Shown here piece by piece: positions 11,714-59,200 of a stretch of DNA of 64,000 bases (the stretch's first letter is position 1; every line of letters begins with the position of its first letter). This DNA is from Pelagomonas calceolata (taxonomy: Eukaryota > Sar > Pelagophyceae > Pelagomonadales > Pelagomonadaceae), in assembly GCA_918797485.1 (NCBI GenBank), contig CAKKNE010000003.1, positions 4,278,001 through 4,342,000 on the forward strand. The letters run 5' to 3'. Below the pieces are notes generated by a model. It did no database searches and was not told the origin of the DNA. It worked only from the letters and a program-made list of their open reading frames with translations. The position numbers were made by a program, and so were the translations under genes.

Positions 11714-14700
11714 CTACGGATCGAGCGCCAGCACGGGGTCCCGCGCCGTCGCCGCGCTCGCCACCACGCGCCGGAACTCCTCGTATGACAGCTTTTTGTC
11801 GCCGTCCGCGTCGAGCGCGCCGAAGGCCAGCATCAGCTTATCCCTCGTGCCGTCTTCCTGGTGGATGCGCGTCATGTCGTCGAGGCCCAGCAGCCGCGCG
11901 AAGTCGGCCTCGATGCCCGTCGAACTTCGCGCGCCGCGGAGCGCCTTGATGGCTTCTATCACGGAGATGTGTCCGTCGCCCGAAATGTCGACGCGATTGA
12001 AGACCTTCCTGAGCGCATCCTCTTGCGCTTCGGTGAGCGCCACCTCGGCCGTATCATCTTCGCGCGCAACGAGCGCCCCCGCGCCTTGGAAGATGTCCAG
12101 GGTCCGTCCCAAAAAGGTCCCCGCGGAACCGCCCTGCGCCGAGTCGTCGTAGCATAAATTGATTTCCTCCGGGTCGGCAGCTTCGTCCGCAGGTTCCTCC
12201 GGGTCGGCGGCTCCAGCCTCGCCGGACGCCGGCGCGAATTGCGGCTTCCGCGCCGCCAGCTTCTTGGCGCCCACGAGTGACGCGAACAAGCCGCGCCGCG
12301 CGGGTGCCGGCGCCGGCGCCGGCGCCGGCGCCGGCCGAGCCGCCGGCGCCGGCGCGGGCTGGCTCTCGTCGACGACGGGTTTGGGCTGAGCGGCCCGCCC
12401 TTTGGAGAACAGGCCGCGCTTCCTGGCCGCGGCGGGCGCGGGGGCCGGCGCGCCGGTCGTCGGCTTGCGCGCGGCCGGCTTCGCCTGCTTCTTCGGTGGC
12501 GCTTTCTTCGGTGGCGCTTTGGCGGGCGCCTTGGCTGCCGTCTTCGTAGACTTTCCATACCACTTCGACCGCGTCCCCGCCTTGGTCGCTCGTGCCGCCG
12601 GTGCCACGCCCTGGTCGTCGAGGAAGGCCGTCGTCACGGGCCCGAAGGACTTCCAATTCGCGAGCGCCTCCGGTGTCGCCGGGTACGCGCCGTGCGTCTT
12701 TTTCAGCGCCGCGCGCGCCGGTGCGCCGTACCACGTCCGCATCGGCTCGAAGACCGTGTTGATCCTGCTCGTCGAGTCCGCGTTCTTCGCCGCTTTGGCG
12801 CCTCCCTTGACCGCCGGCGACGCGCTCGAGGTGTCCTCCTCGACAGACTGCGCGTCGGCGGACTTTGCCGCGGCCTCATCCGACTGCGCCGCCCGGAACA
12901 TGTTCATGACGGAGCTGGCCAGAGACCGTGAGGACCCTTGACCGCTCGCGACGCTGGCGGGCGGAGGCGCGTCGCCGGCCGTGGGCGAGCTGGCGCTCCA
13001 GGGGCGGCTGATCGAAGAAGGGCGACGCGGCGTCGTCGCCTGGAGTTCCTTGCAAATGTCGGCGAAGCTCGGGCGAGCGTCCGGGTCCTGGGCCCACGCG
13101 CGCTCCATGAGAGAGCTGAGGTCGCGGGGCATGGACTTTGGTACGTCCAGCCTCTGCTCCTTGATGAGCTTGTAGAGAATTTGTTGCGGCTTGAGTCCCG
13201 CCCAGGGGATCCCACGGTCGTAAATCTCCCACAGGACGACCGCATAGCTGTAGACGTCGGACTTCTCCGTGAAGGTGTTGTCCTCAAATAATTCCGGCGC
13301 CATGAACGCGGGCGTCCCCGCGGCGCTGTCTCTCATCGTCGCGGTCGTCGTGAACGTCTTCAGCTCCTCGCAGCGAGAGAGCCCAAAGTCGGTCACCTTG
13401 CACCGCCCGTCGTGCGTGAGCAGCACCTGTGTGGAAATCAACATTTTACGGCGCGTTCGTGCCGAATCATCGCGTCGTCCTCCACGCCATCGACGCGACG
13501 CCTGCTCGATGGCGTGGCGATGCCGATTCCTCGCCGCTCGACGGAGCCAGCACGGCCGCGTCATCACCGAGAAATGACTTAGTGAAGAATTATCGGGTGC
13601 ACGCGACACACTGGTTGATTTCCACACAGAGCAGCACGTTGTGGGTCTTCAAGTCGCGATGCTCGATCTTGCAGCTATAGAGGTGCGCCATGCCCAGCGC
13701 CACGTCCGCCGTCCAGAAGCGCTGGTACTCCGGCGTGATCACCTCGTCGTCGCGGTCGAGCGCGTGCCGCAGCGATCCGCCGGGCAGATACTCCATCACG
13801 AGGCCGAGGAAGGATGGGTTGGTGGTGACGACGCCGAGGACCTGGACCGTGCGCGGATGCCGCAGGCGGATCATGATCCCTAGCTCGGTTTTGAACGACG
13901 AGAGCATCTTCGTGCGCTTGAGGGCGGGGACCCCGACCATGCTGATTTTCTTCAGGCAAACAATCTCTCCGCCCAGGTAGCCGCGAAAGACCGCCCCCTG
14001 GCCGCCCTCCGCGAAAGGCAGTTCCTCCACGTCCTCGAGCTCGAGCTCGGACTGCCCCAAGGCCGCCTCTTTCATGCGCTTGACCAGCTCCCGCGACTTC
14101 GTCTTCCGCAGCGCCCCGCCGAGCTCGTGGACGTTTCGTCGAATAGACGCGTTGCGTTCGTTGCCAGCCTCGATGGCCGCCAGGATCCGCTTGTCGCGCG
14201 CCGCGCCCGCCTGGACGGCCGCCATGAGCTTCTCGTCCCGTCCCACGCCGGCTTTGACGGCGACAAGGATCGACTTGAGCTGCTGCTTGTCCACGGTTCT
14301 ACCATCCAGCCTGCGCGCAAATCAACCAGTGAGTCGGGTGCACCCGATAATTCTTCACGGAGTCCTTTATCGGCGAGAACGCGGCCGTGCTGGCTGAATC
14401 GAGCGGTGAGAGACCACGCCGCCACGCGATGGCCTTCGAGACGCGCCGCGACAATTTGATTATGCACTGCATCCAGCATTTTGTTCATCTTCTTGTCCAA
14501 CTTGCTCAGGCCCTCCTTGACCTCGAGCCGGAACTCGCGCATCTCGACCGCGATCTCCGTCGGCGGCACGCGCGCGTCGACCGCGACCGACGTGATCGCG
14601 ACGGCGTCCTCCGAGAGCGCCGCCGCCGCCGCCTCCTCGGATTCTCCTTTCTCGACGACGCGCTTCGCGACGAGCGCCGCGATGGACTGCTCGATCTGGT

Positions 14701-46217: not shown

Positions 46218-48149
46218 ATGCCGCCCCCCCCGCCGCCGCCGCCCCCCGAGGACGCCGGCGACGACGCGCGCGCCTCGGCGGCGGCCGCCCTGCGCGCCCG
46301 GTACGCGCGGAGCCTCGGCGGTGCGCCCGAGTACGGCGGCACGGACCGCCGGCGGCGCGCGGCGCCGGCGCGGTCGCCGGAGTCGCCGCCGCCGGCCCGC
46401 CGACGCTCGCCGCGCGCGGAGGGGGGTGGCGGGCGGCGGACGGAGGGCGACGGCCCGGCGCCGCGGCGCCGGCCGACCGCCAGCGACGACGGCGACGACG
46501 AACACGCGGCGCCTCGGCGCGTGGGCTCTCCGAGGACCGGCGGCGACCGGACGCCGCCGCGCCGCTGGGGCGACGGGTCGCGCGAGGCCGCGGACGACCC
46601 GGCGCCGCGCCGCCGCGACCGCCGCGCCGCCGACGACCGGACGCGGCGCCGGCGTGACGACGGGAGGCGCGACGCCGCCGCAGCCGACGCCGGCGACGGC
46701 TCGCCCGCCGCGGGCGGCGCCGAGGCGTCCCCGCGGCGCCGGCACCGGGGGCGCAATGGCGCCGCCGGCGGCTCGCCGCGCCGGTCGCGCTCGCCCGCGG
46801 CCGCAGCCGGCGCCGACGCGCCCCCGCGGCGCCGGGACCGGAGGCGCGGCCGCGACGGCGACGGCTCGCCGCGCCGGTCGCGCTCGCCCGCGGCCGCAGC
46901 CGGCGCCGAGGCGCCCCCGCGTCGCGACGGCGACGACGCGGTCGGCGCGCGCCTCGACGACGCGCTGGCGCGGGGCCTCGCGCGCCGGGACGCGGCCGCG
47001 GCCCGCGCGACCGCGGGCGCGGCGGCGAAGACGCCCGCCGTCTTCGACGGGCGCGCCATCCCGTTCGTGCTGCGGCGGCTCCACGCCTTCGTGACCGCGC
47101 CGGCGCCGGGCGGCGGCGCCACGGTCGTGCGCTGCTTCATCGAGCGGACGCGGTCGGGCGCGCACGCGCTCTTCCCGCTCTACAAGCTCTACGCGGACCA
47201 CGAGGACGGCACGGGCCGCCTGCTGCTGGCCGCCCGCAAGGTGCCCGCGGCGTCGCCCTACTACGCCATCTCGACCGCGGCGTCCGACGCTGCGTGGAAC
47301 TCAACCAGTGAGTCCGGTTATCCCGAGATGTATTGCGGGGACCTTGGTGAACCTCCACGCCATCGAACCGACGCGGTCGCGGCGACACCGCCGCGTTGAC
47401 GGCGTGGGGCGCCCGAAATTTGATGCCCACGCAGGTCCGACGTCTACAAGGCGCGCGCCAAGCGGAGCAGGCACTACCTCGGCAAGCTGCGCGCCGCGCC
47501 GGCGGCCGCGGCGGCGCCGCGCGAGTACGTCCTCTACGACGCGGGCGGCCGCGCGGACGACGCGCGGCGGCGGGCCCTGCGCCGCGAGCTCGCGGCCGTC
47601 GTCTTCGGCGGGCCGGCGCGCCGCTTCGAGGTGGCGCTGCCGCGCGCGCGCTGGCGCGCGCGCGGGCCGGACGAGGGCCGCGACGCGGAGGCGCTGGACC
47701 CCGGCGTCGCGACGGTCCGCGAGTTCCGGCCCGCCGAGCCGGCGGCGGGCCTGCGGCACGCGTTCGACGTCGTCCGCGGCCGCGGCGCCCAGAACGTGCT
47801 CGACGCGGACTCGGTGTACGTCGCGCACGCGCGGACGTCGAAGTACGACCCGCTGTCGAGCTGCCTCGTCGACTTCCGCGCGCGCGCGGCCGTCGCCTCG
47901 GTCAAAAACTTCCAGCTCGTCGCGTCGGCGCCGGTCGAGGCCCACGAGCGGCGCGCGTACTACGACCGCGACGGCGAGGGGCGCGGCCTCGCGGACGACG
48001 ACGCGGCGCTGCCCGTCGTGCTCCAGATGGGCAAGGTCGGCAAGGACTGCTTCAACATGGACTACACGTTCCCCTTCTCGATGCTCCAGGCGTTCGCCGT
48101 GTGCCTGGCGCGCTTCGACACGGGCGTGCCGCTCGCGACGACGCGCTAG
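46218..48149 (+). CDS. Tubby-like protein (TULP family)
   Basis: 592 aa from exons 46218-47281 and 47435-48149 (1779 nt). Tubby domains bind phosphoinositides and in many species carry membrane proteins to cilia. The N-terminal ~270 residues are Arg/Ala/Asp low complexity with RRSRSPAAAAGA repeats, likely disordered. The Tubby domain follows: TVVRCFIERTR, LYKLYADHEDG, LLLAARKVPAASPYYAISTA, then after the intron KRSRHYLGKLRA and EYVLYDAGG, and at the end the family signature GKVGKDCFNMDYTFPFSMLQ followed by AFAVCLARFDT. The intron interrupts the domain exactly where Tubby sequence resumes and is a transposon-type insertion with an 8-bp duplication. Confidence 0.92.
47290..47434 (+). mobile_element. 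Introner element, 145 bp, 8-bp TSD
   Basis: Flanked by GTCCGACG at 47282-47289 and 47435-47442. It starts CTGCGTGGAACTCAACCAGT and ends TTTGATGCCCACGCAG, imperfect inverted ends related to the other elements. The duplicate gives the GT donor and the element the AG. It has CTCCACGCCATCG in common with the 203-bp copies. Excision restores the Tubby reading frame. Confidence 0.9.
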
Positions 48150-48533
48150 CACGCGTCCGGTAAGATGTATATACTAGTAGTTGCGCGCGCATGGTTGTCC
48201 GGGTCGGGCGACAACAGGCTAAGTATTGGCGTGTCACGTTCCGTGTCACTTTGGTTTGGCCCTGGGGTTGGCGTGGTCCGGGGGCCCTGGGGTTGGCGTC
48301 CGTTGTGGCAACGGCCTCTTGTCCACTCATAAATCTCCCAACTTTATCTTAGCTTCACTATCCTAGTTATTTCAACTATACTTGAATACCCGGCCGTAGG
48401 TACCTACGGTACGGTCCGTACCTACGGTAGGTCCGTAGGTACCGTACCATAGGTAGGTACCGTAGGTACCTGCGGCACCGATCTGGACCTGCTGCAGCAC
48501 GGCAAAGGAGAGCGGGGCCTTTTCGTTCGCTTG
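48150..48533. other. Intergenic region with palindromic GGTACC field
   Basis: Contains a GGGCCCTGGGGTTGGCGT tandem pair (48258-48300) and, at 48398-48475, many overlapping GGTACC/CCTACGG/CCGTAGG words ending about 60 bp before the next ATG. Confidence 0.65.
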
Positions 48534-56291: not shown

Positions 56292-59200
56292 TTACTCCGC
56301 GGCGCGCTCGTCCCGGGAATTGGCGAGCTCGTCCGCGGGCCGGCCGGGCCTCCGGATGGTGGTCACGGTCTCGACGGGCGGTAGCCCCCTCCGCGTGCCG
56401 GCGAGCACCTCCTTGTCCGGCAGCGCGTCGGCCTCGATCATTTTCACCCTCGACGCCGGCCTCTCCTGCAGCCCCCGTGCCAGATCCGCCGCGCCGATCT
56501 CCTTGCGCCGCGCCGCGCCCCAATCTTTCATCGTCTCGGACAGGTGCCCGTGCGCGTCCATGGCCCGCGTCAGGTAAAAGTCCTCGGCGCGCTCGGCGGC
56601 GCGCGCCTCGGTCAGGCCGACCAGGCCCTCCAGTTTCAGGTTGCAGTCGTCGGCGAGGCGGGCATGCTTCAGCAGGTTCTTGTTCAGTCGCGTCGCGTTC
56701 GCGTCGACCGATCGCAGCAGGAGCGGGTCCGCGGTCCGGAAGAACTCCTCGTGGTTCCGCCACCGCTCGCCGAAGTGGACGCGCCGCCGCAGGCGCTCCT
56801 TGACCTCGGGCAGCGCGCGCTCGTGCGCCTCCAGCAGGGGGGCGATCGTCGCCGTCAGGGCCTTCTGAAGCCGCGCGGGGATGAGGGGCCCGACGCCGTT
56901 CACGGCCTCGTAGCGTACCGGCGCAGCGGGCACCGGTTGCCGCTTCTCCAGCTTCGTGCTCCGCACCGTCGGCGCGAGGCGATCGTCCTGCGGCACGGCC
57001 GCGAGCTCGAGCGCGCCCGCCGCGCCGGCGGCGACCGCCGGCGCGGGCAGGACCTTGGGCGGCGGCCGCGCGGCGTCCGCCCGCAGTCGCCTCGTCGTGA
57101 GGGCGTACTTGGCCGGGTCCATCTTGACGCGCGCCGCGACGGGCCCGAGGGCCTCGGCGACCGGCGCGGCGCGCGGCGACGCGTCCCCGGCCGCGGGCGC
57201 GGCCGGGGCCTCCCCGGTGGGCGGCGCCTCGTCCGCCCCGCAGAGCTCGACCTGTGCATAAATCAACCAGTGAGTCGGGTGCACGGCGAAAACGCAGCCG
57301 TGTAGAAGCGCCGCGACAACTTGATTCATGCACTGAGCTCGACCACCGCCTCCTGGACCCGCACCAGCTCCCCCACGAGCAGCGCCGTCGCGCGCCGCTC
57401 CGCGAGCAGGGTCCCGACGACGGTCCCCAGGAGCTGGACCGGCGGCATGCCGCTGTCGCCGCAGAGCTTCCGCACCCGCTCCTCCTCGGCCTTCATGCGG
57501 TCGAGCTCGACCTGGAGCTTCCCGAGCACCTGTGTGGAAATCGAAATTTTACGGCGCGTTCGCGCTGGATCGCCGCGTCGACCTCCACGCCATCGACGCG
57601 ACGCCTGCTCGATGGCGTGGCGATGCCGGTCCCTCGCCGCTCGACGGAGCCAGGACGGCCGCGTCATCGCCGAGAAATGACTTGGTGAAGGATCATCGGG
57701 TGCACCCGACGCACTGGTTGATTTCCACACAGCCGAGTGCCCCCTCGGCCTCGACGCGCTTCAGGAACTCGGACTCCTTCTCGGCCTCGGCGATCTTCAG
57801 CACGCGGCGCACGCGCGCCACCGCGGTCTCGGCCGCCTTGGCGTCGTCGCGGCTCCTGACCTGCAGCGCCAGCACCTTCTCCTGGAGGATGTCGCGCTGG
57901 TGCTCCAGGTCGTAGGCCCGGTGCTCCATGTTCGCGTCGCACGCGCCCGCGGCGTCGAACAGCGGCACCTGCCAGCCGATCGCCCGCAGCCGCCTTCGCT
58001 TCGCGGCCAGCTCCGCCACGAACGCCTGGAGTTTCTCCTTCGCGAAGCGCGAGCCGCCCGTCGCGGCCGCCGCCTCGAGGCCGTCCCGCGCCGCGACGTC
58101 CGCCAGGATCGTCCGCGACAGGTCCCGGGCCTCGGTCGCGAGCTGCTCGCGGTGGAGCGCCGAGGTCGCCTGGACCACGTCGTCGCCGAGGTCCTCCGGC
58201 GCGGCGCCGGCCGCGCGCGCCTGCGTCTCCCGTAATCGCCGCGCCTCGGCCTCCTCGGCCTTGCGCCGCAGCTCCTTCTCGCGCGCGGCCGCCTGCGCCT
58301 CCAGCCGCCGCAGCTTCTTCTCGTACTCCTTGCGGAGCGCGTCGTCGCCGCCCGCCCGCAGGCGCTCGGCCTCGGCCGCCAGCGCGGCCTTCGCGGCCGC
58401 CTCCGCCGCCGCCGCGTCGGCCCGCCGCGCGCCGCGCGCCGCGATGCGCTTCTTGTACTTCTTCTGCAGGGAGACGATCGTCGCCAGCGCGCGCACGGCG
58501 TTGTCGCCCGGCGGCGCCGCGCCCAGCCGCAGCAGGAGCTGCGCGACCAGCCGGTGCAGCCGCGGGAGCGGCATCCTCGAGGTCATGTCCGCCTGCAGCT
58601 CCGCGAGGCCCGTCCGCACCTCGTCCACGAGCGACTGGAGCTCCCTGCACCTGCGCTCCTGCGCCGCGACGCCCTTCAGCTGCCGCTGGACCTGGCGGTC
58701 CGCCGCGTCTCCCGCCCGCGCCGCCGCGTCGACGTCGCCCGCGAGCGACGCGATCTCGTCGCGGGCCGCGCGGAGCCGCGCCTCGAGGTCCGCCGCGCCG
58801 CTCGCGGCGCGCTCGAGCTCCGCGGCGTGCCCCTCCGCCAGGGCCTCGAGCGCCCCGGCGTGGTCGGCGGCGGCCGCCGCGGCTTCGCGCCGCAGCGTCT
58901 CCAGCGCCGCGGCGTGGTCCGCGGCGGCCGCCGCGGCGTCTTCCTTCATTTGCGCGAGCGCCGCGTCGTATTCCGCTTGCTTGGCCTCGAGCTGGGCTCG
59001 CAACGCGTCGAGCGCCGCGTCGTCGCTCGGCGCCGGGGCGTCGCGCCGCGCCTGCTCCGCCAGGGACGCCTCGTCCCGCCGCGCGGCCTCGCGCGCCGCC
59101 GCGGCGTCGGTCTGCGCCTTCGCCAGCGCCTCCTCGTGCGCCGTTTGCGCCCGTGCCAAGGCGTCCGCGGCCGCTCCCTTCGCGGCGTCCAGCGCGGCGG

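Follow-up and report, generated by a model that had tools for sequence, protein, structure and literature searches.

A probable DNA-transposon introner in a kinase gene of Pelagomonas calceolata and its family in the genome

Results

The host gene and the insertion

The window, that is, the whole stretch of DNA analysed here, covers 64,000 nt of Pelagomonas calceolata (GCA_918797485.1, contig CAKKNE010000003.1, positions 4,278,001 to 4,342,000), and its minus strand carries a gene interrupted by two introners. With both introners removed, the frame is open for 2,219 residues, beginning with N-terminal repeats and a Pro/Thr-rich stalk (both recognized by eye) and continuing with the kinase and EF hands found with Pfam. 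The product resembles a surface receptor kinase rich in repeats. An Aureococcus kinase, P0054, carries PF03382. The features of the locus, and the other introner relatives of the window, are listed below.

11714 to about 18690, minus strand: host gene; the genome also holds close and more diverged paralogs of the kinase
11714..13426, minus strand: downstream exon, with the C-terminal kinase half and then EF hands (Pfam PF07714 134-258, PF13405, PF00036)
13419..13426: 8-bp target duplication AGCAGCAC, exon-retained copy; on the minus strand GTGCTGCT, the first codons of VLL
13427..13637, minus strand: predicted GT-AG intron, 211 nt, phase 0, between HRDLKTHN and VLLTHDG
13427..13629: introner element, 203 bp, of non-autonomous DNA transposon type, identified by its family matches
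13427..13442, plus strand: left inverted end CTGTGTGGAAATCAAC; the family end of 15 bp is 13427-13441
13614..13629, plus strand: right inverted end GTTGATTTCCACACAG; the family 15 bp are 13615-13629
13630..13637: 8-bp target duplication AGCAGCAC, intronic copy; minus-strand 13637-13636 is the donor GT
13638..14310, minus strand: exon between the two introners, with the N-terminal kinase half (PF07714 8-132, Pfam query 13638-14294)
14303..14477, minus strand: second introner of the kinase gene, a predicted GC-AG intron, phase 2
47282..47442, no strand assigned: introner relative 47290-47434, perfect 8-bp duplication GTCCGACG
57244..57343, no strand assigned: 84-bp introner relative 57252-57335, variant ends, perfect duplication AGCTCGAC
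57522..57740, no strand assigned: 203-bp introner 57530-57732, duplication CCGAGCAC / CCGAGTGC with 2 mismatches

Direct reading and a script both confirmed the coordinates, the letters and the exact 8-bp duplication given for the insertion in a preliminary description of this DNA. The inverted ends had been called perfect over 16 bp, which is true of the kinase copy; the end shared by the family is, however, 15 bp long (CTGTGTGGAAATCAA, from the consensus of fetched copies), and base 16 pairs here through a change private to this copy. Read on the minus strand, the last two bases of the left inverted end are the acceptor AG. The proposed division of labour, in which the duplicated target gives the donor GT and the element end gives the acceptor AG, is supported by this sequence, by the sense-side donors of the family and by the uninterrupted sites reported below.

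The junction was said to be scarless, and excision of 13427-13637 (211 nt) is indeed predicted to rejoin the kinase reading frame. Since the PF07714 match stops at 132 in the upstream exon and resumes at 134 in the downstream one, the kinase domain loses almost nothing at the break. The intron length is not a multiple of 3, and its retention leads to an in-frame stop after 15 codons. In the predicted fold of the intron RNA the two ends pair with each other (z = -3.56 relative to shuffled sequences), but this is expected from the inverted ends, so that the fold is no evidence of function.

Allowing up to 3 mismatches, the 16-mer end occurs 7 times in the window, where chance would give 0.13. 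The second introner of the kinase gene has an element of 159 bp (14311-14469) with decayed ends, flanked by perfect CATCCAGC copies, and is older-looking than the first. Elsewhere in the window, positions 48393-48476 contain GTAGGTACCTACGG-like repeats that are nearly palindromic.

A large family of related copies

In the genome (32,445,274 bases in 8 contigs), the exact 16-mer end was found 717 times (381 + 336) in 32.4 Mb, while the reversed 16-mer, used as a control, was found 0 times. BLAST with the kinase copy gave 871 candidates, and the best 40, the query's own locus included, match it wholly or nearly so at 93-100% identity; 39 of these 40 are other family members, 93-96% identical. 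Of the fetched copies, 31 are exactly 203 bp long; these differ from their consensus by 3.3% on average, with 78 of 106 variants confined to one copy; the kinase copy departs from the consensus at 9 positions. Beyond the 15 bp, the consensus ends continue with AATTT on one side and CCAGT on the other. The spliced peptides of sampled copies are unlike each other (judged by eye among the peptides listed, leaving out pairs with more than 2 duplication mismatches), which indicates insertions at unrelated genic sites.

On contig 1, 71 distinct exact ends out of the 717 were paired into 68 elements, 62-511 bp long, a sample biased towards a single contig and towards elements with at least one perfect end. 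Two contig-1 ends had no partner in reach; at L065 and L076 the search was followed another 2.4-2.5 kb and none was found. Duplications of 8 bp with at most one mismatch flank 50 of the 68 pairs (30 perfect, 20 with one mismatch), and the other 18 have two or more mismatches; when flanks of different copies are cross-paired, only about 1% reach one mismatch or fewer. This first pairing had partly used the duplication to pick partners, 13 of the 71 ends having more than one candidate, but re-pairing by end similarity alone again gave 50 of 68 (29 perfect, 21 with one mismatch, 18 others). For the close relatives of the kinase copy, itself included, the ends of the BLAST set gave duplications with at most one mismatch in 26 of 29 (22 perfect, 4 with one mismatch, 3 with more). 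L031, with an incomplete match, was left out of the close-relative and pooled counts.

One copy with otherwise good ends, L011 (G000:C5:4041166-4041368), has the 8-bp flanks GTTCTGGC / ACCAGAAC, which are not a direct repeat and instead share 7 of 8 bases of an inverted repeat. This may be chance among the copies examined.

Uninterrupted and filled sites among the paralogs

Empty sites were searched in the same genome with the joined 400-nt flanks of the insertion. The site is uninterrupted in 8 diverged loci (L110-L116, L118), 67-75% identical where aligned; one further locus, L117/L119, is not counted among them. The preliminary description had anticipated a single GTGCTGCT in a related strain lacking the insertion; such a single copy is present at the uninterrupted site of L116, a diverged paralog of the same genome and not a related strain.

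About 90 kb from the kinase gene, a close paralog (C3:4200315-4200868) carries this insertion too, in the same place and with the same duplications and splice-site ends. Its introner has 57 nt fewer inside and keeps, at end position 16, the family base that the kinase copy has changed. Both genes are about 94% identical over a 2.6 kb alignment. The simplest reading would place the insertion between the split from the diverged paralogs and a recent gene duplication. As the close paralog contains the same insertion, the kinase copy is not newborn: the earlier idea of an intron seen at birth holds in that a transposon insertion appears to act as an intron, but not for the age of this copy, which predates the gene duplication.

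Splice donors and target preference

In the good contig-1 copies, GT or GC is found at one duplication end in 50 of 50, against a background of 31.6%, and re-pairing by end similarity alone again gave 50 of 50. Pooling the good contig-1 copies with the close relatives of the kinase copy produced 74 distinct copies whose duplications differ at no more than one base, and each of the 74 follows the same rule. The gene direction was assigned, with the splice letters unused, from a reading frame open across as much as 480 bp of the joined flanks; if more than one was open, the choice fell on the frame with the highest G+C contrast at third positions. In 56 of the 59 copies oriented in this way the duplication starts with GT or GC on the sense side (42 GT, 14 GC), while 3 have neither, and the 15 pooled copies without an open frame all have GT/GC at one end. 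Across the frame-oriented copies, the predicted acceptor AG reads as the end of the element.

Either end can stand on the acceptor side: with the donor side defined by GT/GC, 48 of the 74 copies were typed at both ends, 32 in one order and 16 in the other, the rest having at least one untyped end (20) or an ambiguous donor side (6). Both family ends read TTGATTTCCACACAG toward the exon. Within this end, TTGAT is presumably a possible branch site.

The target of a cut-and-paste transposon has two-fold symmetry: in the duplication, positions 7 and 8 mirror positions 2 and 1 but are free of the donor requirement. A is enriched at position 7 (24/56 against a background of 18%, p 1.5e-5), whereas C at position 8 is not (20/56 against 31%). 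T occupies position 2 in 42/56, but this is confounded by splicing; positions 4 and 6 are also somewhat enriched in G, and position 5 in T. At the antisense duplication end, GT/GC occurs in 11/39 copies against a background of 17.4% (p 0.065) and GT in 6/39 (p 0.019), compared with 37/39 for GT/GC on the sense side. The enrichment of A7 and of antisense GT suggests that some target preference of the transposase is real. We read the main signal as a probable hAT-like T2/A7 preference, to which a splicing filter imposing G1 would be added.

Environmental and transcript-labelled sequences

The best 120 of 2,903 environmental protein matches were considered, and 62 of them were read at the motif. 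Two proteins, P0019 and P0020, end exactly as the unspliced reading does at the kinase introner, and both cross the second introner's site without interruption. Seven others (P0001-P0004, P0007, P0008 and P0009) run straight through the site of the kinase introner and may come from insertion-free DNA or from spliced RNA. P0009 is a UniRef match named Pelagomonas calceolata, identical neither to the kinase gene nor to its close paralog. P0014-P0017 look chimeric. For the kinase introner, we regard these environmental proteins as no more than supporting evidence.

In the tryptophanyl-tRNA synthetase copy L063, P0328 (46-kb contig) continues at the junction into a stretch resembling the element, and P0284 (38-kb contig) runs through it, which suggests presence/absence variation of this introner. 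Two environmental tryptophanyl-tRNA synthetases, P0284 and P0351, end in NTDSAVRLGA, as if entering an intron absent there from the reference L063 gene.

For the aldolase copy L037, with duplications differing at 2 bases, the protein P0121, labelled as an MMETSP transcript (439 aa, strain not given), is 100% identical across the predicted junction. P0121 also has a 46-residue insert after SFW, absent from most close relatives examined, which looks like a retained 3n GT-AG intron. Given this apparently unspliced intron and the strain not being given, P0121 might also derive from an allele that lacks the introner.

Candidates for the mobilising transposase

Among five transposase families searched in the genome, only hAT gave matches, at two loci:

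L041:3550-7200: hAT element with ends CAGGGCAGCA, a 714-aa open transposase frame and a perfect 8-bp duplication
L042:3022-5890: hAT element with ends CTAGGTTGCC, an 832-aa open transposase frame and a perfect 8-bp duplication

Both are apparently single-copy, and protein searches returned no further full copies and one short 56% fragment. Their ends differ from those of the introner and they were rejected as its direct partner. No autonomous partner with introner ends was found in the samples in which ends were paired. For MULE and Merlin/IS1595 transposases there was no match in the genome, with positive controls; KDZ and P-element-like transposases gave no match either, but their controls were equally silent and their absence is thus not established. 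Searches of viral contigs with two end patterns gave 0 matches each, in a collection from which relatives of this genome may be excluded.

The terminal bases of hAT elements generally follow YARNG. The introner end CTGTG departs from it at position 2, as does the hAT element at L042 (CTAGG). From the target pattern and the duplication length, hAT would have slightly better than an even chance of being the superfamily of the introner, which we offer as a lead and not as a filing.

Discussion

Our main reading, with a probability of roughly 0.92, is that the insertion is a non-autonomous cut-and-paste DNA transposon serving as a spliceosomal intron. A trans-acting transposase, most likely of hAT type, would have cut a target with an 8-bp stagger in the kinase exon, and the 203-bp element would have been pasted in with duplication of GTGCTGCT. 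The upstream duplication copy would then provide the donor GT, and the inverted end of the element the acceptor (...TTGATTTCCACACAG). The removed segment is exactly the element plus one duplication copy, so the predicted mRNA is scarless. The two ends have an identical 15-bp sequence resembling an acceptor, which allows the element to work in either orientation. In almost every insertion that survives, the duplication opens with GT or GC on the sense side. The insertion had been presented as showing this process directly, which overstates the case: the anatomy, the family, the target duplications, the uninterrupted paralogous sites and the sense-side donors were read as such, and we infer from the DNA the splicing of the kinase copy, the hAT transposase and the branch point within the inverted end.

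That this could be an ordinary old spliceosomal intron, bounded by repeats only in appearance, agrees with its GT-AG spliceable borders and with the conserved gene around it, but the same 203-bp sequence occurs at unrelated sites with site-specific 8-bp duplications, and 8 paralogs in the genome lack the element, making such an origin very improbable. No more credible is a spread by reverse splicing of RNA: the copies are intron-like and lie nearly all where a donor is available, yet inverted ends, duplications fixed at 8 bp and both orientations relative to the donor side are not expected from that process. A MITE that is not spliced, leaving a broken gene or a retained element, would explain why P0019 and P0020 enter the element and stop. 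Retention would cut the kinase in mid-domain, yet the frame downstream is intact with EF hands after it; donor dinucleotides track the gene sense across the family; and the close paralog lost its 57 nt from the inside of the element but kept both intron ends. We consider this improbable, though somewhat less so than the two former explanations.

Among the alternatives, the least improbable concerns the GT/GC rule, which could come from the target preference of the transposase alone rather than from selection for splicing. The enrichment of A7 (24/56), mirror of T at position 2, the antisense GT (6/39, p 0.019) and the GT/GC at one end in 15 of 15 pooled copies without a frame all point in this direction. 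Against it, C8, the mirror of G1, is not enriched (20/56), while G1 itself is found in at least 56 of 59, and GT/GC reaches 11/39 on the antisense side against 37/39 on the sense side. Preference alone is thus an unlikely source of the rule, and we retain a transposon whose insertions are filtered by splicing. Tentatively, and at somewhat less than even odds, the hAT-like nTnnnnAn target taste may pre-adapt its cargo for intron making, with selection adding the G1 filter: T2/A7 gives a donor T on either strand and the acceptor is present at both ends, so that only the edge G would be needed for splicing in either direction.

Huff, Zilberman and Roy (2016) reportedly described the introner mechanism in Aureococcus anophagefferens and Micromonas pusilla. 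Those introners, known to us by second-hand description in the available text of two papers (PMC7789003, PMC9860276), are also short non-autonomous DNA transposons with inverted ends and a target duplication, carrying one splice site and taking the other from the duplicated target, with scarless removal; they belong to other species, and the likeness is one of description, not of compared sequences. In the available part of the Pelagomonas calceolata RCC100 genome paper (PMC9481584), the genome has 32.4 Mb in six nuclear contigs plus plastid and mitochondrion, Aureococcus introners have a characteristic length of about 210 bp, and the RCC100 introns show a 210-bp length peak that is likened to introner elements. 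The 211-nt kinase intron fits this peak. That account is based on length alone in the part available, and its Supplementary Note 3 may already describe inverted ends and duplications (PMC9481584).

A survey of introners in eukaryotes reports, in the text available, families in which the element brings the 3' splice site and the duplication provides the 5' one (PMC9860276). Its Symbiodinium example has a 4-bp duplication and the same division of splice sites as Pelagomonas; in its Aureococcus sp. example both splice sites belong to the element and the mRNA gains 12 bp, whereas the Pelagomonas introner adds nothing. The string "pelago" is absent from the main text of this survey. Amoebophrya introner elements, as described in the available text (PMC7789003), are likewise repeated introns with inverted and direct repeats, but the direct repeats are of 3-5 nt and are reported mostly for introns whose splice sites are non-canonical, in contrast to the 8 bp and GT/GC-AG of Pelagomonas. 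Hermes, a hAT element, generates 8-bp duplications with an nTnnnnAn target pattern according to the part seen of PMC10368747; Pelagomonas shares the duplication length and an enrichment of A7 that is independent of splicing, but differs in that no transposase is linked to its introner ends and its two genomic hAT elements end otherwise. The introner-like introns of mirusviruses, as treated in the accessible portion of PMC12768974, have no bearing on the kinase copy. In literature excluding supplements, we found nothing beyond the RCC100 genome paper joining introners with Pelagomonas, or its introns with transposable elements, and we make no claim that this family is absent from print.

Already known are the mechanism, from Aureococcus and Micromonas, and the introner-length introns of Pelagomonas. 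Added here are the anatomy of this copy, the uninterrupted and filled sites within one genome, the count of sense-side donors including GC, and the mirror test, together with a splice-independent A at duplication position 7, as in the target pattern of Hermes (hAT). The insertion offers a well-resolved example of an intron gained through DNA transposition in a marine picoalga. Its filled site, a filled paralog that later underwent a deletion and eight relatives with the site uninterrupted are all present in the same genome. The mirror test on both edges of the duplication parts splicing selection from target preference and is applicable to other introner families.
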